Both the position numbers and the translations under genes were made by a program. From Verrucomicrobiia bacterium (GTDB lineage Bacteria > Verrucomicrobiota > Verrucomicrobiia > Opitutales > Opitutaceae): a stretch of 11,153 nt of DNA. Position 1 is the first letter of the stretch. Each line of letters opens with the position of its first letter. The notes under the pieces are model-generated. The model was not told the origin of the DNA and did not search any database. It saw nothing but the letters and a program-made list of their open reading frames with translations. The DNA lies in the NCBI GenBank assembly GCA_030424825.1, contig JAUHWE010000090.1, forward strand, positions 1 through 11,153, written 5' to 3'. Positions 1 through 11,153 of this stretch are shown here, piece after piece.

Positions 1-993
1 GATATTCCAGGTGATGGTCGGCGGATCGAATTCGTCGTTCTGCCAGGCCGGGTCGGCTTCCGTGCCCGAGTTGTTGTCCTCATTGGCTCGTTGAATGGCG
101 GTGACGGGCCGCCAGAGATTGTGAGCGTATTTTGCCTCCCAGCACACAATCGCCCCGTCCGCTTGAGCCAGGCTTAAGAGCGCAAATAGACGGGCGTTGT
201 CCGCCAGTGAGTTGTTTCGGTCACGCGCGATATTGGCCGCGATTTCGTGGAAGTGTCCCGGCGGCATGGCCGTGAAGTTGAAGTCGGACCAGAATCGTGC
301 AATTAGCCCTTGTTCCTCCGTTCGAATATCGCTCTCCAGGCTGCCGATCGCTTTCACTTGATTCAGGGCTTCCGCATATTCTTGGCTATTCAATACAGGA
401 GGGGGCGGGGGCAGAAACGGTTCCAGTTCCGACAGGCAGAATGGGGTCACGTAGCGCCATTGAGGCGTGAGGGGAGGCCGAAAATTCGGCGGCGTGCGAC
501 GCCAGGCACCCGGCGCATCACTGGGAATGTAAGGCACGTCGGTGGACGATCCATCGCCGACGCGATTCTGGAGCGCTATCAGGGCGATCTGTTTTCCTAA
601 TGTTAGTCCATTGGTGGTAGCTGCCGTTTGCGGAGCGGACTCAAGCCAACGGGCGTAGAGTTCGTCGGTTGGCCCGCTAAAGGACGGATAGAGCAATTTC
701 ATGAGCTCGTAAGCGGCTCCCACTGCGGCGGCCTCGGGCGATGTGTCCAAAGGGGTGTCGAGTTCGGAAAGGTAAGGCTGGTGGGTCCGCAGCACGGAAT
801 TTACCGAATCATAAATCGCCGTGTGCATGATCGCCAGGTTGCGGGTGCTGAGGGTTGGGGCGGTGTTGTCCACGCGAATGGCATCAATCATCAATGCATT
901 CCATTCCAGCACGACGTCGGCGCCCGAAGGCTGGGGGGTCGACAACATGAAAGCGAGAATCGCCAATTGGGGAAGCGATGGCCATTTAGTCAT
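1..993 (-). CDS. Vanadium-dependent haloperoxidase / PAP2-type acid phosphatase family protein, N-terminal part (cut by left edge)
   Basis: An open frame of 331 codons runs from an ATG at 993 off the left edge. Residues 1-24 look like a Sec signal peptide (Lys3, hydrophobic stretch about 8-17, small residues to Ala25), so the product is probably exported. Residues 28-65, with a short run of WNALMIDAIR type followed by a HTAIYDSVN-like helix, are typical of vanadium haloperoxidase-related proteins. A segment with FWSDF...PPGHFHEIA lies near 234-251. Lys288 and Arg295-Pro296 form the KX6RP motif that opens the phosphate/vanadate pocket of the PAP2 superfamily; the PSGH and SRX5H motifs would lie beyond the edge. 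The family oxidises halides with peroxide or hydrolyses phosphate esters, and the missing half is needed to choose. A GGAAGG stretch abuts the ATG. An in-frame GTG six codons upstream is an alternative start but would spoil the signal peptide. Family sure, substrate unknown. Confidence 0.85.
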   Translation of the reverse strand, partial: MTKWPSLPQLAILAFMLSTPQPSGADVVLEWNALMIDAIRVDNTAPTLSTRNLAIMHTAIYDSVNSVLRTHQPYLSELDTPLDTSPEAAAVGAAYELMKLLYPSFSGPTDELYARWLESAPQTAATTNGLTLGKQIALIALQNRVGDGSSTDVPYIPSDAPGAWRRTPPNFRPPLTPQWRYVTPFCLSELEPFLPPPPPVLNSQEYAEALNQVKAIGSLESDIRTEEQGLIARFWSDFNFTAMPPGHFHEIAANIARDRNNSLADNARLFALLSLAQADGAIVCWEAKYAHNLWRPVTAIQRANEDNNSGTEADPAWQNDEFDPPTITWNI

Positions 994-1371
994 CCTTCCA
1001 TCCGTTCGCACGAAACATCGAATTTTGAAAGTAATTTTCTTTGGAAGCGGTTAATTTTTCGGGACTTTTCCTCACGGGTCGGTGTGCGTGCCCCGCCGAA
1101 ATACCTGCGATGACTAGTCCGCTCTGAAGCCAAGCCGCTAGGGAAAGATCGATGGGAACTACAGCGTGAAGAACTGCGGCGACAGTGCCAACACCTTCAA
1201 ATACCACGGCAGATGCATTTTCAAAATCCCCATATCCGACTCGCGGATACTAGGCGTATCCAATGGAGGGTCCGCTGCGCAACTTCGAAGACTGACGGGC
1301 CCCAGCCAGCTGTGATATCGCGGCAAAAACGGCAATGCGAAGCTACGGTGAGAAGGTCCCTTTGTTGTTGG
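994..1371. other. Intergenic stretch, no gene recognised
   Basis: This 378-base gap lies between two minus-strand genes. Short open frames exist on both strands, but none shows a domain, a signal peptide or a good ribosome-binding site. The only structure I see is a small perfect hairpin at 1245-1261 (GGATAC, loop TAGGC, GTATCC). It has no T-run, so I do not call it a terminator. The promoter of the haloperoxidase-like gene should lie in 994-1080, where the sequence becomes A+T-rich (1020-1060), but no convincing -35/-10 pair was found. Confidence 0.6.
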
Positions 1372-1845
1372 CTATTTCTTTTCATTGCCAAGCATTGGAA
1401 CTTCGCTTCCCCTATTCACTTTCGCGAGAAGTTCAAGTAGAAGGGGTTTCACCTTATCAGCGGTTTTTCCAAATTTATTCATGTTTGCACCGCCCATTTT
1501 TGCATCATAGGAGACCTCGCCGAGTACGCGACCATCTTCATACAGTGTAGCTTCGAAATAGGTAAGATACATTGCCATGTCCCATTGCCAATTTGCCGTG
1601 TAGGTTAAGTAGTGATTTGCGTCTTCTGGTCGATCTCCTGAGTACTTTTCCGAGTCAAATCCCATGTTTGAAATTTGGGTGACTAATTCATCTACCAGTC
1701 CTTCCATATGGACTCGTTCATTCTCCAAGACGTATATTTTTTTTATGGTAGTTCCAGAATCAACCGGAACAACGTTCTTAGAAATAGCACATCCAGAGAG
1801 GGTGAGCAGTGTTGTGAGTAAGAGGAGGGCTTTAGTGTTTTCCAT
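1372..1845 (-). CDS. Small outer-membrane-type lipoprotein, Sbal_3080-like
   Basis: The 157-residue protein starts with a lipoprotein signal: a short charged N-terminus, a Leu/Thr-rich core and the lipobox LSGC with Cys19 as the lipidation site. Ala at +2 fits export away from the inner membrane. The mature part has a VVPVDSG-like segment after the Cys, an ICxE-like segment (IYVLENERV, about 38-46) and a central YLTYTANWQWD stretch. The sequence that follows reads like strands (MYLTYFEATLYEDG, then VSYDAKMGG), ending in an Asp/Lys helix. From memory this order matches small lipoproteins annotated as Sbal_3080 family, whose function is unknown. The ATG at 1845 has only a weak GAGAGA upstream. 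A related 61-base hairpin spacer separates it from the next upstream gene, and its base composition is A+T-richer than the large cluster. Lipoprotein call strong; family name moderate. Confidence 0.8.
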   Translation of the reverse strand: MENTKALLLLTTLLTLSGCAISKNVVPVDSGTTIKKIYVLENERVHMEGLVDELVTQISNMGFDSEKYSGDRPEDANHYLTYTANWQWDMAMYLTYFEATLYEDGRVLGEVSYDAKMGGANMNKFGKTADKVKPLLLELLAKVNRGSEVPMLGNEKK

Positions 1846-1860
1846 AAATTCTCTCAGGGA

Positions 1861-1921
1861 GCGCTAAGTGTAGGCGCTGGCGATGGAGCGGAATCACCAT
1901 TGCCCGGCACGCCATGTCAGG
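1861..1921 (-). repeat. attC-like imperfect hairpin between the zinc-ribbon and lipoprotein genes
   Basis: The spacer forms a hairpin with arms 1879-1886 and 1897-1904 (7 of 8 paired, 10-base loop). Read on the minus strand it opens with CCTGACATGGCG and ends CTTAGCGC. Its first 24 bases match the spacer at 2207-2267 at about 17 positions, and it overlaps the stop codon of the upstream gene. This resembles an integron attC site, but the right-hand core box (CTTAGCG) departs from GTTRRRY, so it may be decayed or something else. Confidence 0.35.
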
Positions 1922-2198
1922 ATTTTTTGATTAGGTTTAAGATTGTCCCAATGGTTAGTTCGAATGCTGTTTCGATCATCGATTTTTTGCCATCTCGAAT
2001 CTTTCTTTCGTTTTCTTTCCTGTCGATTGCTGCGTTCGACTTTTTCGATTCCTCATCAGACTTTTCTATTTCTTCTTTGTTGAAACGTAGTTCGTCTGGA
2101 ATGACAGATCCGCACCAAGAGCATTTCGTCGAAGTTCGAGAAAACAATGTCTTTGAGCATGACGGGCACTTTGGTGTGTCTTTGTGAGTTGGTTCCAT
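1917..2198 (-). CDS. Small zinc-ribbon protein, function unknown
   Basis: The product has 93 residues. Cys11, Cys14, Cys26 and Cys29 form CPSC-X11-CSWC, a classic short zinc ribbon that should bind one Zn2+. Residues 40-75 are very rich in Glu, Lys and Asp and read as a charged helix, possibly a coiled coil. A short apolar stretch follows (about 76-90, IETAFELTIGTILNLI) with a KKS end, which could be an amphipathic or membrane-touching helix. There is no signal peptide, so it is probably cytoplasmic. The start at 2198 is well supported by AGGAG at 2206-2210 with a 7-base spacer, the best ribosome-binding site in the window; it overlaps the right core of the attC-like spacer. I do not recognise a named family; ribbon-plus-helix proteins of this size occur widely, including as gene cassettes. 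Confidence 0.7.
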   Translation of the reverse strand: MEPTHKDTPKCPSCSKTLFSRTSTKCSWCGSVIPDELRFNKEEIEKSDEESKKSNAAIDRKENERKIRDGKKSMIETAFELTIGTILNLIKKS

Positions 2199-2206
2199 TC
2201 ATTTGC

Positions 2207-2267
2207 TCCTAACGCCGAGTACAGGCGGCGAGCGCTTGCGCTCGTTGCCTGAAACGCCTTTTTAGGC
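2207..2267 (-). repeat. attC-like hairpin between the exported-protein and zinc-ribbon genes
   Basis: On the minus strand the 61 bases begin GCCTAAA (2267-2261) and end GTTAGGA (2213-2207). These are mutually complementary over CCTAA/TTAGG and close to the integron core boxes RYYYAAC and GTTRRRY. Inside are a 5-bp stem (2222-2226 with 2247-2251), a two-base internal mismatch (GG opposite TT) and a 6-bp stem (2229-2234 with 2239-2244) closed by a 4-base loop. The upstream stop codon lies 3 bases before it and the next start codon 8 bases after it, as between integron cassettes. A plain transcription terminator is the main alternative. Confidence 0.45.
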
Positions 2268-2270
2268 ATC

Positions 2271-2975
2271 TTAAATCTGGATGATTCTAGCGTATTTTGT
2301 GCCTTGAGTTACAGGAATGTCTTCGGCCTTGGTTGTCCCGTCGCCCATAATCTCTTCAGAATAGTCCGTCCAAGTTTCAAGATCATTGGAAGTTTGTATT
2401 TTGTATATCGATCTTGGCTCTGTTGCCCATCGAATATGGAGGGCATCGTCGCCAGTCCCGGTAACCAAATCTCCGACAATCTTTATGTCGGGTCGGTCCG
2501 CGACCGACCAAAGCGTAAAAGTCGCAACATCGCTCTGTCCCGTTACTCTAGATAGGAAATATGGAAACGCCATTACTGTAGGGTTTCGATTTCCTGTGAA
2601 GTCGTGGTGAACCTTTACTTCCTCTACTTCATTGTTTTCGCCCAGCGAAGCAGCTACTGTGAAGCGATTGTAGGAATCGTCTCGGCCCTCATAAAGTAAA
2701 TCTCTATCACTGACGTACCTGATAGACTCGACGTATGGAGTATTGCTTCTATCAATTTCCGAAATCAGCTCTCCGGAGCTGTTGTACCAGTATAGTGTGC
2801 TAGAATCGTTCGAATCCCAGGTTGTTAGTGCTACCGATCCATCACTTCCTAATTCGTAAATGTAATTTCCATCAGGATGGTCCTTAGTCCATAATATAGT
2901 CGCGGAAAATGCTGATTGGGCAAATGCGATCAAAAGTATAAATAGCGGTATTGGTTTGAGGTAACGTAATTTCAT
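2271..2975 (-). CDS. Exported protein of unknown function with Verrucomicrobiota-type C-terminal domain
   Basis: The 234-residue product has a clear Sec signal: basic MKLRYLK, hydrophobic core 8-20, and an AFSA cleavage region near residue 25. The mature part (26-180) is rich in Asp, Ser, Asn and Tyr with alternating hydrophobic residues, which suggests a beta-rich, possibly propeller-like fold (YIYELGSDGS, LYWYNSSGELI). Residues 187-234 contain YKIQTSNDLETW followed by a short beta segment. This type of C-terminal module is frequent in secreted Verrucomicrobiota proteins. No catalytic motif is visible. The stop sits just before the attC-like spacer at 2207-2267. The upstream DNA (2976-3060) is very A+T-rich and probably carries its promoter; TTGAAA on the minus strand near 3046-3051 is a possible -35, without a well-spaced -10. 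Exported location fairly sure, role unknown. Confidence 0.75.
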   Translation of the reverse strand: MKLRYLKPIPLFILLIAFAQSAFSATILWTKDHPDGNYIYELGSDGSVALTTWDSNDSSTLYWYNSSGELISEIDRSNTPYVESIRYVSDRDLLYEGRDDSYNRFTVAASLGENNEVEEVKVHHDFTGNRNPTVMAFPYFLSRVTGQSDVATFTLWSVADRPDIKIVGDLVTGTGDDALHIRWATEPRSIYKIQTSNDLETWTDYSEEIMGDGTTKAEDIPVTQGTKYARIIQI

Positions 2976-3232
2976 GGTGTTTTGTTTGAAGAAAATTCTA
3001 TTCGCCTAAAATTATTGATTAAGCATCCGGGAATATAAACAATTTTTCAAGCTTGATTTACGTGGAAACACCTAGTTCTATGGATTCTTAATGATTAAGC
3101 CCTCTGATTCGGGGTGCTTAGTCATCAATGATTCAATACTCATGGATAAGATTCTTCCTGCTGTTAACCGGGAATTTGAAGCCGCTCTCGACCGGGTGGC
3201 AGTTCCCGAAAATCGAAAACCCTTCTTTTGTA

Positions 3233-3512
3233 AGAGAGTGTCCAATAAAGCGTAATATGCGTCGTTTTCGTCCAGATGGGTCTGGGCAAGGCGTGCGCGT
3301 TGCGGGGTATCCATGGAATGGCTATCCCCAATGCGCTCAACGCAGCCCAGGCCCATCTGGGCGGGAACCCCTCTGGGGCAGCGTCCTTTTTAGCTTCTGG
3401 CGGCGTTGCAGACGAGGGCCAAGGCCCTACGGGCATTGGCACCTGGCCTGTGCCTTGCCAAAAGCTAAAAATGCCTGCTGCGACGCGTATTCTGATTTAT
3501 TAGACACTCTCT
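3233..3512. mobile_element. MITE-like non-autonomous element with 32-base terminal inverted repeats
   Basis: The ends 3233-3264 and 3481-3512 are inverted copies of each other with 27 of 32 bases matching, both beginning AGAGAGTGTC. Two further inverted pairs lie inside: 3272-3287 with 3345-3360 (15 of 16), and 3387-3401 with 3457-3471 (14 of 15). The whole 280 bases can therefore fold into two long arms within an outer stem. No transposase reading frame is present, so movement would need a transposase in trans. No target-site duplication is evident next to the ends. A large structured RNA is an alternative, but matching ends favour a mobile element. Confidence 0.7.
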
Positions 3513-3671
3513 CAGTGGCTCAGGTACTTCCTGGATTCTGTGACAAAAACGGCGAGCTTCAAAGCGATTCCTCCAGCATCGAACCCTTTCTTCTGAAGCT
3601 ACTATTCCCTTTGGGATTAAGACCCCGAAGCTCATGACGAGCGTAGCCTGAAAGGCGAAGACTGTTGTCGC

Positions 3672-3703
3672 AGACCCCGGCCTGTCGGCGGCTCCGGGGG
3701 TCT
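3672..3703. terminator. G+C-rich hairpin, possible terminator
   Basis: AGACCCCGG (3672-3680) pairs with CCGGGGGTCT (3694-3703) apart from one bulged G, with a 13-base loop, and is followed on the plus strand by TTTACT. The T-run is short. No plus-strand gene ends just before it, so its role is unclear. On the minus strand it lies about 240 bases beyond the stop of the giant gene. Confidence 0.35.
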
Positions 3704-3887
3704 TTACTGGATCAAGAGCTTCATCGTCTACCTAGAAAAGGGTGACGGGTAGGCTCTGCCACGATTGGGACATTATATATAATTCCAATGCGGTTTTGGT
3801 GACAGAAGATTGTTGTCCAATGGTACTATATATAAAATAGAGTCAAGAGTTGAGAAGACTGATGAGGTGCGTTTATATTTGACTTAC

Positions 3888-3902
3888 GCGATCAGCGATC
3901 GC
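3888..3902 (-). terminator. Perfect 6-bp hairpin after the giant gene, weak terminator candidate
   Basis: GCGATC (3888-3893) and GATCGC (3897-3902) pair perfectly around AGC, about 40 bases beyond the stop codon at 3944-3946 of the minus-strand gene. No T-run follows, so it would be at most a weak or Rho-assisted stop; it may also be chance. Confidence 0.2.
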
Positions 3903-3943
3903 GACCACAGGGTGGATGTTAGCCATTCACTCCTCGGCAATCG

Positions 3944-6900
3944 CTATTTCTTGGCCACCCACTTGGCGGCATTGATCAGGATCTTCCGGTAGTCGGGGTG
4001 GTCGTGGGCCCGTTCGTCGTGGCCGAGGGTGTATCCCACAATACGGGCCTTCGGATGCTGGGTAATCCAGACGGCGGGGTGCCGTTCTCCCGACTTGGCG
4101 CTGACGCTGGTTTCGGCGAGAACACGGATCTTGGCGGCGCCTTCCGGCGGACCGTCCTTGTTCATCATGTAGAGTTCGTCGACCAGTTCGAATTCAGGCG
4201 AGACCCCTTTCATGATCGGGTGGCGCTTGTTGACCACACGCACGCCCATGGGGCCGAGCTTGTCGTGGCCGCGCGTGCCGCCGCCGACAATTTTCATATT
4301 CAGTTCGGGCCAGTCCTTGTATCCATACCAGGTTCCAGGGTGGTGCATGATGACGCCTTTTCCGGCCTCGATGCGGTCCATAAGCGCCTTGCGGTAGGCG
4401 GGCGTATCGAACCCGGCCCGATTGACGCTGATGATGGCGACGTCCGCGTTAGCCAGTTCCTTAGTCGCCTGGGCGACGTCCTCGGTGTAGTGGACCGTGA
4501 GTCCGGCGTCCTCCAAAGTTTTGGAATCCGACTTTCCGAAGAACTCGTGGAACTTGTGGGAAGAGCCGCCGCTGATGATGAGGACCGAGGTCTTGCCTTT
4601 CTCCCAGTTTACGGGAGTGGCAGGGATCGGATCAGGCCATTTGCGCCGATTGAGAATGGGGGCGGGTGTTTTAGGGGCGCTAGCGGCGTTCGCCTGTTCT
4701 CCTGTGGACGGACCTGCCTGAGCGATGATGAACGCGAGCAGATCACGAAGACCTGAGGCTCCCAAGGCTTCGAACCCTTCCGGCATTAAGCTGCGCTGGG
4801 TGTTCTCACGCTTGGCGATATTGGACTTGGCGATTTCCATGACCCCGGTCTGGGTGGCGAGGGTGAGCGTAGCGTCGTTCTCCGTGGAGATGACGCCTAC
4901 GAAGGTTTCCCCATTTTTCGTCGTGATATTATGAGCGGCGTAGTTTGGCTCTAGTACGCGATTGGGATCGATGATTTGGCCAAGGAGCTCGGCCGCTCCG
5001 TGCGAACCGATGCCGTCAAGGGCTGGGCCGACAGCGGCTCCTTCACCCCCTAGTTTGTGGCAGACCACGCAAGCGTTAAAAAGAATCTTCCCTTTGGCGG
5101 GGTCGCCGCCTTTCTCCACTTCGGGCAAGAGCTTGGCGATGAGCTCATCCTTTTCGGCGCTCACCGGCGCGATGCGAGCGAATAGCCGGAAGGCGTCCCG
5201 GGCAGTGCGCCAATCCGGGTGCGTGCGAAGCCGGGCGATGTTGCCCGGCCCGAGTTCTGCCGGAGTAATCTTCCCGTTGTCCATGGCCTTGAGAAGTTCT
5301 TGCGCCCAATTAGGCCGTTTGACGATTTGGTTGAAGGCCTCCATTTTCAGTCCGCCTTCGAGTTTGGAAAACTGGTCGATGAGAGTCTTCCCGAGGTCGT
5401 CACCGTCGACCGAGCCGATGGCGGCTAGAATGCCTGATTTTAGCGAATCGCTTCCGCTTCCCGAAAGCAAGGTAGTCATGGTGGGAAGGATTTTGGCATC
5501 CTTTTTATGGATACTGACCAAACTGCGTGCGATGTTGACGCGTTCTTCGTCGGATACGTTGGAACGCGATAGACTGTTGATCATGGAGGACTTGATGGCG
5601 TTCGTTTGCGATGCCAGCTGTCCTTGGGTGTCCCAGATCAGTGCTAGGGGAAAGGCGAGCACCTGCGTTTCGTCATTGCTGAGCAAGGACGCAAGAGCGG
5701 CTTTCAGGGCGTTGGTCATTCGAGGCGGCTGGGACACGTTTTCAGCGAGGGCTCTCAATACAGCGGCTTGGATGGGCGTGGCTTGTGCGTCGGCAAGTCC
5801 GCAGGCTTTGAGGAGACGTGCGGCATTGGAGGCGGCGTCACCCTGAGACAATGCGGAAGGCGAGAGGGCGGTCGCGAAGGTGATCAGGGAATCGTTGGGA
5901 TCCGTTTTTAGGGCGGCCTCGATCACTTCGATCGCTTGATCCTGCGAGGCGGCTACCAGAGCCGAGAGGGTCCAATCATCCTGGGCCGCTTTCACACGGG
6001 CGACGATCTTGGCAGGGTCTCTTTCTTCGAGGGCGTTGTTATAGGCTCGCACGGCGTCGCTGCCAACAATGCTGGGCTCGGCTCCGTGGAATTCGCGCAA
6101 GAGTCTTTGAGCGGTGCTGCGTATTTGCTCGTTCGGGCTCTTGGCTGCTTTCTCGAGAGCGGCCACGTTGTTGCGGTCCAAAGAAGCGGGCTCGATCGCT
6201 TTCGCCTCCTTGTGCTGCACTTTCCAGATACGGCCGTAGTAGTGGTCCCGGTCAGGGCGAACGGCGGCGTTGGCCGGACCGTGGACCGGGCCACGGGTAT
6301 CGTTGTGGATAACGGCCTGATTGCAAAAATCGACGATATACATGGCGCCGTCGGGGCCGGTCATCACCTCGATCGGACGGAACCACAAGTTGGTGCTGGA
6401 GATGAACTCCTGCTGCTCGCGACCGGCTTCCTTGCTGGCTTTGAAGGATACGCCGTCCTTGACGACATTGAAGTGTCCGATGATGTTCAGAGTGGGCTCG
6501 CTGGTGAAATAACTTTGGTTCCATTTCTTGGGCCAGGCGCCGCCTTCGTAAATCACGGTGCCCGCTCCGGCGGTGTAGCGTCCGACCTGGTCGATCTGCA
6601 CGTAGGCCTGCTGTTCCCATTGCATGGCGGGGAAGGTGCGAGCGCCGGGGAGTAGCCCATTGGTACCAGTGACTCCCGGCAGTTTGCCTTTGGCCAAAAT
6701 GGATTCGGGAAGGACGACATGGACCAGCGGGTTGCCAGTGGTGGGCTGGGTGTAGAAGACCTCGCCCGACATGGTGGTATCCATTCCCCAAGTATTGCCG
6801 TTGCGCATGGCATATTGTTCAAATGCGCTGCCGTCGGGCTTGAAACGCACGACGCCGTTGCCGATCGGGCCAAAATCCTTTTTGCCGTCGCCCGATTTCA

Positions 6901-8296
6901 CATTGTCGGAAGACGAGTATCCGTGGGTCGCATACACCCAGCCGTCAGCGGCGTAGTGGAGGTTGTTGATGACCGCGTGCGTGTCGCGAATGCCGAGATT
7001 GGTATAGAGTTTGGTCCGCTTGTCAGCCACGTCATCTCCGTCGGTGTCCTCAAAGAACCAGATGTCGGGAGCCGCCGTGGCGATGACCCCGTTTTTGTGG
7101 AAGACGAAACTGTTTACGAGTTCGATCTTGTCCGCGAAGACCTTCTTGGAGTCCATGACCCCGTCGCCGTCGGTGTCGGTCAGAATGCTGATCCGGTCGA
7201 GTGGGTCGCGGTTGTATTCGCCCGGCTTGAGCGATCCGGAATCCATCCAGGCAGGAACGTTCACCTTGCGTAGCCCATTGGGATACTCGGGAGTTTCGGC
7301 TACCCACAGGCGGCCTTTCTCGTCCCAGTTGATGTTCATCGGGTTGTTGATCAGAGGCTCCGAGGCCACTAGAGAAATCTCGAATTCGGGATGTACGTTC
7401 AGGTAGCTAGGCAGCTTCTCGGGATGGGGGACGCCACCTTCCACGTAGCGAAGGTTTTCACCGAGCTCGTCGGCCTGGCAGAGCATGTCGACGTCATCGC
7501 GTTTCGCCGCCCAAGCGATGCCGCGCAGGATCATGGCCTTTACGCCGGTGTGGGAGAAATTCTTGTTCCAATGGCCGGGAATGTGGACGAAGGCCCGGTA
7601 GGGTTGGCCGCCACTGAGCTTGTTCTCGTAGGTCCAGATTTGCGGCTGGATGTCATAAATGTTGACTGATTTGCCCAGGGCGACGGCCTCAGCGGCTCGT
7701 TTCTGCGCGTCCTGGTTGCCGCGTCCCTTGGTGTCGATCGCTTTGGGGGTGTAGGCGGTCGCGAGGATGGTCGCGTCCGGGTGGATATCCATGTCGTAGT
7801 AGATCTCGTCCTCGAGGTCGAAGTTGGATATGTCCTTGGTAATGGGATTCGGAATGTTGGTGAAGTAGAGGCTCATGGGGGCCTCGAGGAACTTCGTGGT
7901 TCCGTGGCGCCAGGATCCGCCGATGATGCTCTTGTACCAGTCGGGGTCGCGGGAAACCGCTCCTGCGTGGATGACGACGAGTCCGCCGCCGCGTTTGAGA
8001 AACGCGTTGAGGTGGTCGCGCTGGGCTCCCTCGATATTGCCGGCCTCTTTGGCATTGAGTAGCAGAACGTCGGTATTGGCCAGTTGCGCTTGGGTGGGAA
8101 ACTCTAGGCCGCCGTCGCAGTCGACGCCTCGAGATTCGAGCAGTTCGGTCCAGTTCTTCAAGAATTGTGGATGCTCGTGGGCGCCGGGCGCGTGTGTCTT
8201 TTCTCCGGCCCGGATGAAGACGCGAATCGGATCGGCGGCCTGGGCGCAGAGCGCAGTCATGGCGACTGTCAGGATTAGGATGAGGTAATGTTTCAT
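3944..8296 (-). CDS. Giant periplasmic ThuA / PVC-type dehydrogenase / HEAT / cytochrome c / ThuA fusion protein
   Basis: The 1450-residue product starts with a Sec signal peptide (MKHYLILILTVAMTALCAQA, cleavage near Ala20-Ala21). Residues 24-265 are a ThuA-like domain (class I glutamine-amidotransferase-like fold). Residues 300-695 are a PVC-type glucose/sorbosone-dehydrogenase-like propeller, opening HPEFEISLVASEPL, with two Asp-rich calcium-type loops (DTDGDGVMD 374-382, DTDGDDVAD 417-425). Residues 705-1060 are HEAT-like helices. Residues 1066-1195 are a cytochrome c domain with CVVCH (1076-1080) and probable axial Met1171 in SLMPEG. A Pro/Ala linker leads to a second ThuA domain (1235-1449; GGSSHKFHEFF, MHHPGTWYG, YTLGHDERAHDHPDY). 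ThuA is named from trehalose utilisation, and the propeller-haem pair suggests oxidation of a sugar or polyol with electrons passed to a respiratory chain. No Shine-Dalgarno precedes the ATG. It is the last gene of the cluster. The substrate cannot be inferred. Confidence 0.93.
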   Translation of the reverse strand: MKHYLILILTVAMTALCAQAADPIRVFIRAGEKTHAPGAHEHPQFLKNWTELLESRGVDCDGGLEFPTQAQLANTDVLLLNAKEAGNIEGAQRDHLNAFLKRGGGLVVIHAGAVSRDPDWYKSIIGGSWRHGTTKFLEAPMSLYFTNIPNPITKDISNFDLEDEIYYDMDIHPDATILATAYTPKAIDTKGRGNQDAQKRAAEAVALGKSVNIYDIQPQIWTYENKLSGGQPYRAFVHIPGHWNKNFSHTGVKAMILRGIAWAAKRDDVDMLCQADELGENLRYVEGGVPHPEKLPSYLNVHPEFEISLVASEPLINNPMNINWDEKGRLWVAETPEYPNGLRKVNVPAWMDSGSLKPGEYNRDPLDRISILTDTDGDGVMDSKKVFADKIELVNSFVFHKNGVIATAAPDIWFFEDTDGDDVADKRTKLYTNLGIRDTHAVINNLHYAADGWVYATHGYSSSDNVKSGDGKKDFGPIGNGVVRFKPDGSAFEQYAMRNGNTWGMDTTMSGEVFYTQPTTGNPLVHVVLPESILAKGKLPGVTGTNGLLPGARTFPAMQWEQQAYVQIDQVGRYTAGAGTVIYEGGAWPKKWNQSYFTSEPTLNIIGHFNVVKDGVSFKASKEAGREQQEFISSTNLWFRPIEVMTGPDGAMYIVDFCNQAVIHNDTRGPVHGPANAAVRPDRDHYYGRIWKVQHKEAKAIEPASLDRNNVAALEKAAKSPNEQIRSTAQRLLREFHGAEPSIVGSDAVRAYNNALEERDPAKIVARVKAAQDDWTLSALVAASQDQAIEVIEAALKTDPNDSLITFATALSPSALSQGDAASNAARLLKACGLADAQATPIQAAVLRALAENVSQPPRMTNALKAALASLLSNDETQVLAFPLALIWDTQGQLASQTNAIKSSMINSLSRSNVSDEERVNIARSLVSIHKKDAKILPTMTTLLSGSGSDSLKSGILAAIGSVDGDDLGKTLIDQFSKLEGGLKMEAFNQIVKRPNWAQELLKAMDNGKITPAELGPGNIARLRTHPDWRTARDAFRLFARIAPVSAEKDELIAKLLPEVEKGGDPAKGKILFNACVVCHKLGGEGAAVGPALDGIGSHGAAELLGQIIDPNRVLEPNYAAHNITTKNGETFVGVISTENDATLTLATQTGVMEIAKSNIAKRENTQRSLMPEGFEALGASGLRDLLAFIIAQAGPSTGEQANAASAPKTPAPILNRRKWPDPIPATPVNWEKGKTSVLIISGGSSHKFHEFFGKSDSKTLEDAGLTVHYTEDVAQATKELANADVAIISVNRAGFDTPAYRKALMDRIEAGKGVIMHHPGTWYGYKDWPELNMKIVGGGTRGHDKLGPMGVRVVNKRHPIMKGVSPEFELVDELYMMNKDGPPEGAAKIRVLAETSVSAKSGERHPAVWITQHPKARIVGYTLGHDERAHDHPDYRKILINAAKWVAKK

Positions 8297-8314
8297 TGTT
8301 TAAAAAAGAGCTTT

Positions 8315-8392
8315 TGTAGGAGCGTCGCTTGCGGCGACCGCTTTGGTTGAGGGGGAGCTGACTATACGGTCGCCGCAAGCGACGCCCCTACA
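8315..8392. repeat. REP-like inverted repeat, family 1 (starts TGTAGGAGCG)
   Basis: Arms 8315-8340 and 8367-8392 are inverted copies with 25 of 26 bases matching, separated by 26 bases. Each arm contains the inner palindrome-like CGTCGCTTGCGGCGACCG. The GTAGGAGC opening recalls REP sequences mobilised by RAYT transposases. It fills most of the gap between the TIM-barrel gene and the giant gene. If transcribed, it could stabilise the upstream message or reduce readthrough. Confidence 0.75.
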
Positions 8393-8436
8393 TTGAATTG
8401 ATTCTAGTTAAGAACTTTTGCCGGTAATAGAAAACC

Positions 8437-9303
8437 CTATTTGCGGGCAACTGGGATTTGCTTGAACTTTCGGGTGAGATTGGTGAGCGATTCTTCCACG
8501 CCCATTCGCTCGAGACTGGAGGCTCCCACGAAGCCTTGGGCATCGGTGAGCTCGTTGACCTTGGTGGCGTCCTCCGGTGTATTGATGGGACCGCCGTGGG
8601 AAAGGAGGAATATGTTTGGGTTGACGGCCCGGCCTGCCTCGAAGATCGCCTGGCAGCGGGCGGCGGCATCCTCCATCGAGCAGACGGCTCCGGTAACGCC
8701 GATAGAGCCGCCGACGGTGGTTCCGACGTGGGCGATGATCGCATCGGCACCGGCTTCCGCCATGGCGGCGGCTTCCTCGGGCTTGGCGACGTAGACGATG
8801 CTGAAGAGGTCCATTTTGGAAGCGAGCTTTACCATTTCAACTTCCTTGGAGAAGGGCATGCCGGTTTCCTCCAGCACGTTGCGGAAGTGGCCGTCGACGA
8901 TACAGTGTGTCGGGAAATTGTTTACGCCGGAAAAGCCCATGTCCTTCACTTTAAGGAGCCAATGCCACATGCGGCGGCGCGGGTCAGTGGCGTGCACGCC
9001 GCAGATCACCGGGATCTCCTCAACCGTTGGAAGCACCTCGAACTCGCCAATCTCCATGGCGACCGCGTTGGCGTCGCCATAAGCCATCATCCCCGCAGTC
9101 GAACCGTGTCCCGACATGCGGAAGCGGCCGGAGTTGTAGATGATGAGCAGGTCGGCCCCGCCTTTCTCGATGAACTTGGCGCTGATGCCCGTTCCGGCTC
9201 CGGCGGCGATAATCGCTTCGCCGCGGTCGAGCGTTGCTTGAAGTCGATCACGCATTTCTTGGCGCGTGTACGGGTTTCCTTTTCCTGTCCAGGGATTTGG
9301 CAT
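8437..9303 (-). CDS. Phosphoenolpyruvate hydrolase-like TIM-barrel protein (TIM-br_sig_trns family)
   Basis: The 288-residue protein is a single TIM-barrel domain of the kind annotated as phosphoenolpyruvate hydrolase family or TIM-barrel signal transduction protein (Pfam PF09370, from memory). Landmarks are GAGTGISAKFIEKGGADLL (35-53) with YNSGRFRMSG (56-65), GVNNFPTHCIVDG (126-138), AHVGTTVGGSIG (191-202), LSHGGPI (234-240) and GFVGASSLERMGVE (257-270). The glycine-rich loops at strand ends suit a phosphate-binding site. There is no signal peptide, so it is cytoplasmic. The related domain also occurs as the C-terminal part of plant Tm-1-type proteins, usually beside a UPF0261 partner; no such partner lies in this window. 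The ATG at 9303 has no Shine-Dalgarno, and its leader consists of heptamer repeats. It sits between a cupin gene and the giant sugar-oxidation gene, each gap holding a REP-like palindrome. The true reaction is not established by sequence. Confidence 0.88.
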   Translation of the reverse strand: MPNPWTGKGNPYTRQEMRDRLQATLDRGEAIIAAGAGTGISAKFIEKGGADLLIIYNSGRFRMSGHGSTAGMMAYGDANAVAMEIGEFEVLPTVEEIPVICGVHATDPRRRMWHWLLKVKDMGFSGVNNFPTHCIVDGHFRNVLEETGMPFSKEVEMVKLASKMDLFSIVYVAKPEEAAAMAEAGADAIIAHVGTTVGGSIGVTGAVCSMEDAAARCQAIFEAGRAVNPNIFLLSHGGPINTPEDATKVNELTDAQGFVGASSLERMGVEESLTNLTRKFKQIPVARK

Positions 9304-9314
9304 AATGGTAATTG

Positions 9315-9349
9315 AATTAAGAATTAAGAATTAAGAATTAAGAATTATG
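9315..9349. repeat. Heptamer tandem repeat AATTAAG, four exact copies plus one variant
   Basis: AATTAAG occurs at 9315-9321, 9322-9328, 9329-9335 and 9336-9342, then AATTATG at 9343-9349. The array ends 12 bases before the TIM-barrel start codon, in its untranslated leader. A slip in copy number would change leader length by 7 bases and could alter promoter spacing or translation. It is outside the coding frame, so it would not switch the frame. Confidence 0.85.
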
Positions 9350-9413
9350 AATGAATTGTAATGATTTTTAGGTTACAAATGGGCTCGGATGAGCAAGGCT
9401 TGTTTGCTTAGAT

Positions 9414-9481
9414 GGTAGCGGGCGATCTCCGAGCGCCCATACGCTGGTTGATACATGGGCGCTCGGAAATCGCCCGCTACC
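9414..9481. repeat. REP-like inverted repeat, family 2 (starts GGTAGCGGGC)
   Basis: Arms 9414-9440 and 9455-9481 are inverted copies with 26 of 27 bases matching around a 14-base loop. The sequence differs from the repeat at 8315-8392, so it is a separate family. It lies between the cupin stop and the TIM-barrel start. As a strong RNA hairpin it could partly terminate or protect the message. Confidence 0.75.
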
Positions 9482-9548
9482 TTTAATACATCGAGGCTCG
9501 CCCCTGGACGCTTGCTTTGTGTTCTCCGTGGCATTCGTGGGGAATAAA

Positions 9549-9980
9549 TTATTTTACCGGGGGTCGGTTTTGCGATTCGCGGATAGACTTCCAGGGGGCT
9601 TCCTCGGACACGTCTACGATGTTGGGATCGCCACCATTAAGGGGCGAAAGGATCGCGAGGAAAGTGACGTCTTCGTCGAAGGGGTTGTAGGTGCCGTGGA
9701 CGGCGCCTTGTGGAATCAGTGCCATCTCACCCGCTTTGAGGATTCGGTATTCGTTTTCGACCCACTGTTCTGCCTGTCCGGATAGCACGTAGATGATTTC
9801 CTCCCGCGTTGGATGGGTGTGGAAAGGGTGCGAGCGGCCTGCGGCGATGGTGGCTCGTACCATGAGGAGCTCTTCGGCGCCCACGAGCTCTTTATTAGAA
9901 AGCCATTCGACGGTGGCCCACGGATCTTGCTCCGTTTTAACGTCGGCGGCTTGCATGAAGCGTTTGATTGAATCTGGCAT
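9549..9980 (-). CDS. Single-domain cupin protein (Cupin_2 type)
   Basis: With the ATG at 9980 the product has 143 residues. Both cupin motifs are intact. Motif 1 (G48-X5-H54-T-H56-X4-E61-X6-G68) supplies two His and one Glu ligand, and motif 2 (G84-X5-P90-X-G92-X2-H95-X3-N99) supplies the third His, so a metal such as Fe, Mn or Zn should bind. No signal peptide is present. Such small cupins act as isomerases, dioxygenases, sugar-acid or ligand-binding proteins; nothing here decides which. An in-frame TTG at 9995 would add five residues, but I prefer the ATG; neither has a Shine-Dalgarno. It is the first gene of the minus-strand cluster, 245 bases ahead of the TIM-barrel gene and divergent from the AraC-type regulator. 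Confidence 0.85.
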   Translation of the reverse strand: MPDSIKRFMQAADVKTEQDPWATVEWLSNKELVGAEELLMVRATIAAGRSHPFHTHPTREEIIYVLSGQAEQWVENEYRILKAGEMALIPQGAVHGTYNPFDEDVTFLAILSPLNGGDPNIVDVSEEAPWKSIRESQNRPPVK

Positions 9981-10353
9981 AATTGGAGTGGTCAAAAATC
10001 TAGATCGCCCGCAAGGAGCGTGAGAATGAATAGGAAAGAGGAATTATGGGGTTGTGATGCTTTTGGCTACGGATTGCGCGTGTAATGGTTGTTTGGTGAC
10101 GTGCTTCTTTGGGTTGTTGCTTCGTGTCGCCCTGTGCCCTGGTGGTCAGGTCGCCGCTGGCTCGTTAGCAGGCAAAAGCTTGATGGGTGAACTACAAATT
10201 TGATCGATCTCTTTCTGGAGCCCCGTTAGCCGGTTCGCAAAGCAATTCGGTCAACAAGCACCTATCGAAAATCAACTTTGAGTTCGGAATTAGCTGGATT
10301 TTATCGGGCGGAATACGGTAGGGCTATCGGAAGTCCTACAAATAGAGGGGGTT
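9981..10353. other. Divergent intergenic region between cupin and AraC-type regulator genes
   Basis: These 373 bases should contain the promoters of both the minus-strand cluster and the plus-strand regulator, and probably the regulator's binding sites. I could not pick out a convincing promoter pair or an operator repeat. A 19-codon open frame at 10026-10085 on the plus strand has AAGGAG at 10013-10018, 7 bases before its ATG; it may be a leader peptide or chance. Confidence 0.5.
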
Positions 10354-11153
10354 ATGGTGTCTAATAGCGAATCGAAAACCAAGGAATCGGAAGACGTCCA
10401 GATTTTGGGCGACTCGACCTATTTCCTGGTTCGGTCCGACGAAGTGGAAAACCGCCCTTGGATGACTAGTAGCCCCGTGTGCCCACTGCTCAAGCAGCAT
10501 CACATCGCCCATGCGGGCCTCTTGAGGTGCCAGTACCCCTTTGAAATCGTGAGAACGGACCAGTCGGGCTCCTATATGATGGCGTGTTTTGAAGGCGAGG
10601 GGAGCATTCGGGTGGACGGCGCGTGGAAGACCGTCCGGTCGGGAGAGGCCTGTCTGCTTCCACCCTTCGTGCAAAACTCATTCCGTTGCAAGGAAGGCGT
10701 CCCGTGGCATTTTTGCTGGGTTCGCTACTTGGAATCGCGTGAGTGCAAACCGATCGTTTCTCAGAACTCCCCCGTTCTAAAGGCTTATGATTACGCCCCA
10801 TTGAAGGCTGCGATCGAGGGGTTATATTCAGAAGCCTGTGGGGAAAATAGTCCAAGCATTTTGGGCTACTGGATAGAGCTGGTTCATCAGTACGCCTTGC
10901 GATTCGCCCAGCCCTATGACAATGATGACCGTTTGTGGAGACTGTGGAATCGGGTTGAACCGGAACTTCATCGAAAATGGAATCTGCACGAACTGGCAGA
11001 GATCGCCCACGTGAGTGTGGAACATTTGAGGCGTCTGTGCCAACCAAAGCCCTTCACGGTCTTCCGTTTGCAGAACCTGTTTTTCTTGATACGCTCGTTT
11101 AACCGTATCAAAAACCGGTGTCGCCAACAGACCGCCAACAGGATGAAATTGCA
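10354..11153 (+). CDS. AraC-type transcriptional regulator, C-terminus replaced by antisense ispD sequence; runs off right edge
   Basis: An open frame of 266 codons starts at ATG 10354, preceded by an in-frame TAG; GAGGGGG at 10345-10351 is too close to the ATG and fits the next codon (GTG, 10357) better. Residues 55-125 look like the beta-rich cupin-type ligand-binding half of AraC proteins ([22 protein letters not shown]). Residues 193-229 are the start of the DNA-binding half, with the first helix-turn-helix [21 protein letters not shown]. After Cys229 the expected second helix-turn-helix is absent; residues 230-266 are the antisense reading of an IspD-coding sequence. The protein as read lacks half its DNA-binding domain. 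In a normal context it would be the ligand-responsive switch for the divergent cupin/TIM-barrel/ThuA cluster. Family sure; the 3' end is probably not native. Confidence 0.8.
11020..11153 (-). pseudogene. ispD: Fragment of 2-C-methyl-D-erythritol 4-phosphate cytidylyltransferase (IspD)
   Basis: Read from the right edge, 44 codons (11151 to 11020) give [15 protein letters not shown], then [17 protein letters not shown]. This is the conserved P-x-x-DT-x-KR ... DR-x-GLW-x-x-QTPQ-x-F block of IspD, the enzyme that makes CDP-methylerythritol in the MEP isoprenoid pathway. IspD homology stops after Phe at 11020-11022; beyond it the same strand is the antisense of the AraC-type gene. The remaining N-terminal part would lie beyond the right edge, and the C-terminal part is missing. 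Either this is a broken copy created by rearrangement or the sequence here is a chimera. Confidence 0.8.

Follow-up and report, generated by a model that had tools for sequence, protein, structure and literature searches.

An apparent araC-ispD fused gene at the end of a verrucomicrobial contig is very likely an artefact of sequencing or assembly

Introduction

Chimeric sequences have been described from amplified DNA as well as from assembled metagenomes. In the portion of the study of MDA considered here, template-switch chimeras were primed on 2-21 shared bases in more than 70% of junctions, more than 85% were inverted, and inversions of less than 10 kb made up 337 of the 475 chimeras (PMC1855051). 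In simulated metagenomes, according to the part of the report drawn on here, most chimeric contigs united members of one genus or family (PMC3100316).

The contig end described in this study can be compared to both. It resembles the MDA chimeras, as that portion of PMC1855051 presents them, in being an opposite-strand join at a short identical stretch, but their inversions mostly lie under 10 kb apart, whereas here two organisms are joined. It resembles the inter-species chimeric contigs of metagenome assemblies, as that part of PMC3100316 presents them, in placing different species in one contig, with misannotation as the result. Those chimeras mostly united one genus or family, whereas the partners found here are apparently from different phyla and share about 21 bases.

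Results

The window, meaning the whole stretch of DNA analyzed (11,153 nucleotides), is the entire contig C545. It belongs to an assembly of 811 contigs totalling 5.04 Mb, with a completeness of 89.05% and a contamination of 5.51%. This assembly, called the bin below, has the appearance of a metagenome-assembled genome. Judging by the names of its protein relatives, the window appears to come from Verrucomicrobiota; the named matches of the araC protein that are nearest in rank are Opitutales bacterium and Verrucomicrobia. The last gene is an AraC-type ORF on the plus strand, which starts at 10354 and remains open to the contig end (266 aa). Its final part overlaps a piece of ispD on the opposite strand, and the features of this junction are listed in Table 1. 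Past the last base of the junction the contig runs on for 112 bases, and the ispD piece makes up the final 133 bases of the contig. The left end of the contig was compared with the other contigs to read the assembler's k and overlapped none of them; neither did the right end.

Four further frames in the window lie on the minus strand: a cupin gene (9549-9995), a phosphoenolpyruvate hydrolase-like gene (8437-9303) beside a gene for a protein of 1450 aa that combines DUF7133, cytochrome c and two ThuA stretches (3944-8296), and an open frame of 337 aa truncated at the left end of the contig (1-1011), for which no Pfam match was found at E 1e-3.

Table 1. Features at the right end of the contig
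Feature	Coordinates	Strand	Basis
5' part of AraC-type regulator gene, comprising the sensor domain and the beginning of the first helix-turn-helix up to and including HLRRLC; truncated at junction	10354..11041	+	8/10 genus genomes, 8/8 loci, P0121
Overlap of both homologies, the join point	11021..11041 (start 11019-11021, end 11039-11041)		DNA matches and codon counts
Foreign ispD fragment, cut by contig end	11021..11153	-	Pfam IspD positions 123-164 of 221, 44.3 bits; 88% DNA identity to L023
Spurious ORF C-terminus (antisense of ispD)	11042..11151	+	ORF listing; no candidate protein sharing three 5-residue words with residues 216-266

The regulator has close relatives among the Verrucomicrobiota. 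A match to araC at 70-79% identity, within an open frame of 290-309 aa, was found in 8 of the 10 other genomes of the genus (E 8.1e-119 to 3.7e-134), which makes the window gene an orthologue of full-length AraC/XylS members. The remaining two genomes, G003 and G005, gave no match at E 1e-20. The closest database protein, P0121, is 91% identical over 92% of the query and carries HTH_18 at residues 213-290 (80.2 bits). The neighborhood is also the same. In the eight syntenic loci that were fetched (L103-L110), the DUF7133/ThuA and phosphoenolpyruvate hydrolase-like genes upstream of araC match in all eight and the cupin gene in seven, and the gene order before araC is conserved, with extra DNA between cupin and araC in some loci.

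Compared to these regulators, the window copy lacks everything past HLRRLC. An earlier note on this DNA had located HLRRLC at 11023-11040 on the plus strand, and the codons there are indeed CAT TTG AGG CGT CTG TGC, continuing the reading frame that opens at 10354. In six of the eight loci the DNA ceases to match the window at 11039 and in the other two at 11041, whereas the relatives' gene continues through a complete helix-turn-helix domain. In a scripted check, the helix-turn-helix pattern continued in all 120 of the araC homologues listed (261 passed the E-value). The junction itself was seen in none of the eight genus orthologues and in none of the 120 listed homologues; a CQP word present in two of the latter, P0157 and P0185, is unrelated and sits at a different place in the protein. 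AraC/XylS proteins are recognized by a C-terminal DNA-binding domain with two helix-turn-helix motifs (HTH_18), and the 266-aa window ORF does not have it: no helix-turn-helix Pfam match was obtained at E 1 or better, and its only three Pfam matches, to AraC_binding and two cupin families, were sub-threshold. Among candidate proteins, none had three 5-residue words in common with the chimeric tail (residues 216-266). This tail, which the earlier note warned would otherwise be reported as the abnormal C-terminus of a regulator, is the antisense of ispD.

On the complementary strand, 11020-11040 reads AQTPQMF, so the AQTPQM and QTPQ-x-F motifs of IspD that had been claimed there are present. At the contig end, the minus strand matches the IspD family (PF01128) with 44.3 bits (E 2.4e-11), above the cut-off of 27, as would be expected if the proposal of an IspD piece on this strand was right. 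The match establishes family membership but does not amount to a complete nucleotidyltransferase gene, since it stops at 11021 on one side and at the contig end on the other. AraC homology thus ends where the opposite-strand IspD homology begins, as had been proposed. The best public gene is the complete ispD (2-C-methyl-D-erythritol 4-phosphate cytidylyltransferase) of L023, contig k141_3392753 of a Gammaproteobacteria MAG, which is 93% identical in protein. Its DNA matches the final 133 bases at 117 positions (88%), the QTPQMF motif included, although only about one-fifth of the gene is present in the window. The L023 gene encodes 241 aa and lies between a 103-aa ORF before it and a 162-aa ORF after it, which may correspond to FtsB and IspF, respectively.

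Relatives of the fragment were collected, and 80 of 111 confirmed loci were retained. Among the 120 protein relatives listed for the L023 IspD, the eight closest agree with the fragment at 36-42 of its 44 residues, and the one that follows agrees at 32; one of these eight, named Pseudohongiellaceae, agrees at 38. Another 56 genomes related to that of L023 were searched as well. At E 1e-50, 29 of them gave a match, with the L023 genome among the 29, but none supplied closer ispD DNA, and the IspD matches apart from L023's genome had 42-52% identity. By the relatedness of each side, the two sides of the junction appear to come from different organisms and from different phyla, namely Verrucomicrobiota and Gammaproteobacteria. 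The G+C content is 47% in the tail, 48% in L023 and 55% in the window, with the tail's 112 bases being too few to weigh much.

Two sources of the ispD piece within the bin were considered. One, the bin's own genome, was rejected. Its intact IspD (contig C626, 238 aa), the sole other match to the family above the cut-off in the bin, has only 16 of the 44 residues in common with the fragment. In a search of 57 genomes of the window's order at E 1e-3, only the window itself matched, with 0 of the 56 others. The other was gammaproteobacterial contaminant contigs in the bin. When the 4-kb L023 locus was searched in the bin, the junction was found (E 5.5e-41) together with six short matches at E 0.03-0.79, and so, within the scope of this locus, nothing except the junction fell below E 0.01. 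Exact 21-mers of the chimeric tail were absent from all compared loci outside this contig.

The switch between araC and ispD falls within the overlap word. The earlier note described a shared motif of 21 bases. Judged against the closest references, the overlap is indeed 21 bases long (11021-11041), but its edges are less certain than the note implied, and it may span 19-23 bases when synonymous codons are allowed. On the IspD side, Phe is encoded by TTT in 43, by TTC in 43 and by neither in 1 of 87 ispD loci (out of 104, after 17 without the motif pattern were dropped). Since TTT and TTC are equally frequent, the overlap starts somewhere in 11019-11021. On the AraC side, the Cys codon is TGC in two and TGT in seven of nine sequences, which places the end somewhere in 11039-11041; position 11042 is A in the window compared to G in all nine. 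As the ispD source strain was not found (best 88% DNA identity), the length of the shared word is bracketed at 19-23 bases.

Next, the length of this word was compared to what other sequences share. The longest exact word common to window positions 1-11041 and L023 has 13 bases, and the longest in 360 araC-locus/ispD-locus pairs (9 araC loci with 40 of the 80 ispD loci) has 18 bases. In random sequence, two 5-Mb genomes should have approximately 11 21-mers in common, and a 5-Mb genome and a 1 Gb metagenome approximately 2,300. Such words should therefore be common over a whole sample, though rare for any given locus pair. The codons of HLRRLC and of antisense AQTPQMF match at a mean of 12.9 of 21 bases in 783 pairs (9 araC by 87 ispD), and random draws (up to 200,000) gave a mean of 5.3 (sd 2.0), with 0.08% reaching 12.9. 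We make no claim of a motif hotspot on this basis, because the register was picked at the junction, the sequences on each side are related to one another and, at such a rate, many registers of any gene pair would reach 12.9.

A search of the bin with P0121 did not turn up the missing part of araC. The 21 matches comprised the window, a full-length paralogue on contig C398, 18 weaker C-terminal matches and one poor match with stop codons, and apart from the paralogue the C-terminus of P0121 was matched at 37% identity or less. The paralogous cluster on contig C398 of the bin (G000; L009 2074-4398) contains a second full-length araC, 302 aa, that is 57% identical to the window's. Near it is a gene that, by eye, resembles the window's phosphoenolpyruvate hydrolase-like gene.

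Another contig of interest is C181, which ends inside the gene that comes next after araC in the relative G010, about 915 bases past the break in G010 coordinates. This match beyond the break suggests that the real araC locus probably runs on across an assembly gap, as judged from one relative's genome. At E 1e-8, C181 matched none of the other seven relatives' loci (one of eight, G010). The gene cut by the end of C181 is enolase C-terminal-like (MR_MLE_C; L128 3622-4359, minus strand), and by synteny with G010 it may be the true downstream neighbor of the window araC.

Discussion

The junction is, with high confidence, an artefact of sequencing or assembly, whether a misjoin or a chimeric library molecule, and would have been made in silico or in vitro. 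Bases 11042-11153 would then be foreign to the genome: 112 bases, or 133 if the overlap is counted, from the ispD gene of an unrelated gammaproteobacterium, attached to a truncated araC at the very end of the contig. One point against an artefact is that the proposed true continuation, on C181, is drawn from a single genome.

The likeliest route, which we consider reasonably probable, is a k-mer misjoin, in which a short-read metagenome assembler would have left the araC path and continued along the ispD path via one shared word of about 21 bases. Common assemblers begin at k=21, and an overlap of 19-23 bases is compatible with such a word. An overlap of this length between distant organisms leads us to prefer a k-mer misjoin. 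Because the partners appear to be from different organisms, the head-on orientation is simply one of two that were possible, and both an in-cell rearrangement and an intramolecular MDA inversion fit less well than an inter-organism misjoin. The earlier note's reading of a join at short homology, with an artefact favored, agrees with our data, while the inversion that it stressed says little. Template switching, which it also named, seems less apt, as an overlap of about 21 bases is longer than usually needed and suggests a k-mer misjoin. Two observations speak against the misjoin. A word this long is unexpected for any one locus pair, as the maximum of 18 bases illustrates, and the partners are far apart, unlike the chimeras within a genus or family in the part of PMC3100316 considered here.

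Another possible, though doubtful, explanation is that a template switch in whole-genome amplification or library PCR joined another cell's ispD to araC, and that a read of this chimeric molecule extended the contig. The foreign tail of 133 bases is no longer than one common short read, which would suit this explanation, and there is no sign that this sample had been amplified, which would not. MDA junctions do prime on short shared stretches and are mostly inverted, in the portion of the study used here (PMC1855051). By that same portion, however, MDA inversions are mostly between nearby segments of the same genome, whereas the partner here is of another lineage, and 19-23 bases of overlap lie at the far end of the MDA range.

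A true rearrangement in the cell, by which a horizontally acquired piece of ispD was placed in araC through illegitimate recombination in this lineage, is very unlikely. The araC frame does stay open up to the contig end, and relatives from other species are compatible with an event specific to this strain. Against this, the junction is missing from every genus orthologue and listed homologue compared, the ispD piece is of a different lineage and breaks off at the contig end, the bin contains no more of the L023 locus than matches with E values of 0.03 and above, and the araC remainder was not found on any other contig of the bin. Illegitimate recombination is also generally held to need less overlap than 19-23 bases, a requirement that the overlap exceeds. 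In the form of a genuine event of this strain, by which ispD DNA of a gammaproteobacterium entered the verrucomicrobial araC via about 21 bases of chance identity between unrelated conserved motifs on opposite strands, we regard it as very improbable. A functional regulator with an unusual C-terminus has a negligible chance, despite a 266-aa frame that reaches the contig end, as no helix-turn-helix match and no candidate sharing three words with its last residues were obtained and the tail, being antisense of ispD, is contradicted by the opposite-strand match.

The odd araC-ispD fused gene is thus very likely not real, and its importance is limited to data hygiene. We recommend trimming the contig at about 11020, leaving the chimeric C-terminus off the annotation of the regulator, and counting the ispD piece neither as a second copy nor as a horizontal transfer. 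If the k-mer misjoin is the right reading, this junction also illustrates how two protein motifs encoded on opposite strands, by having a 21-mer in common by chance, can cause contigs to be misjoined.
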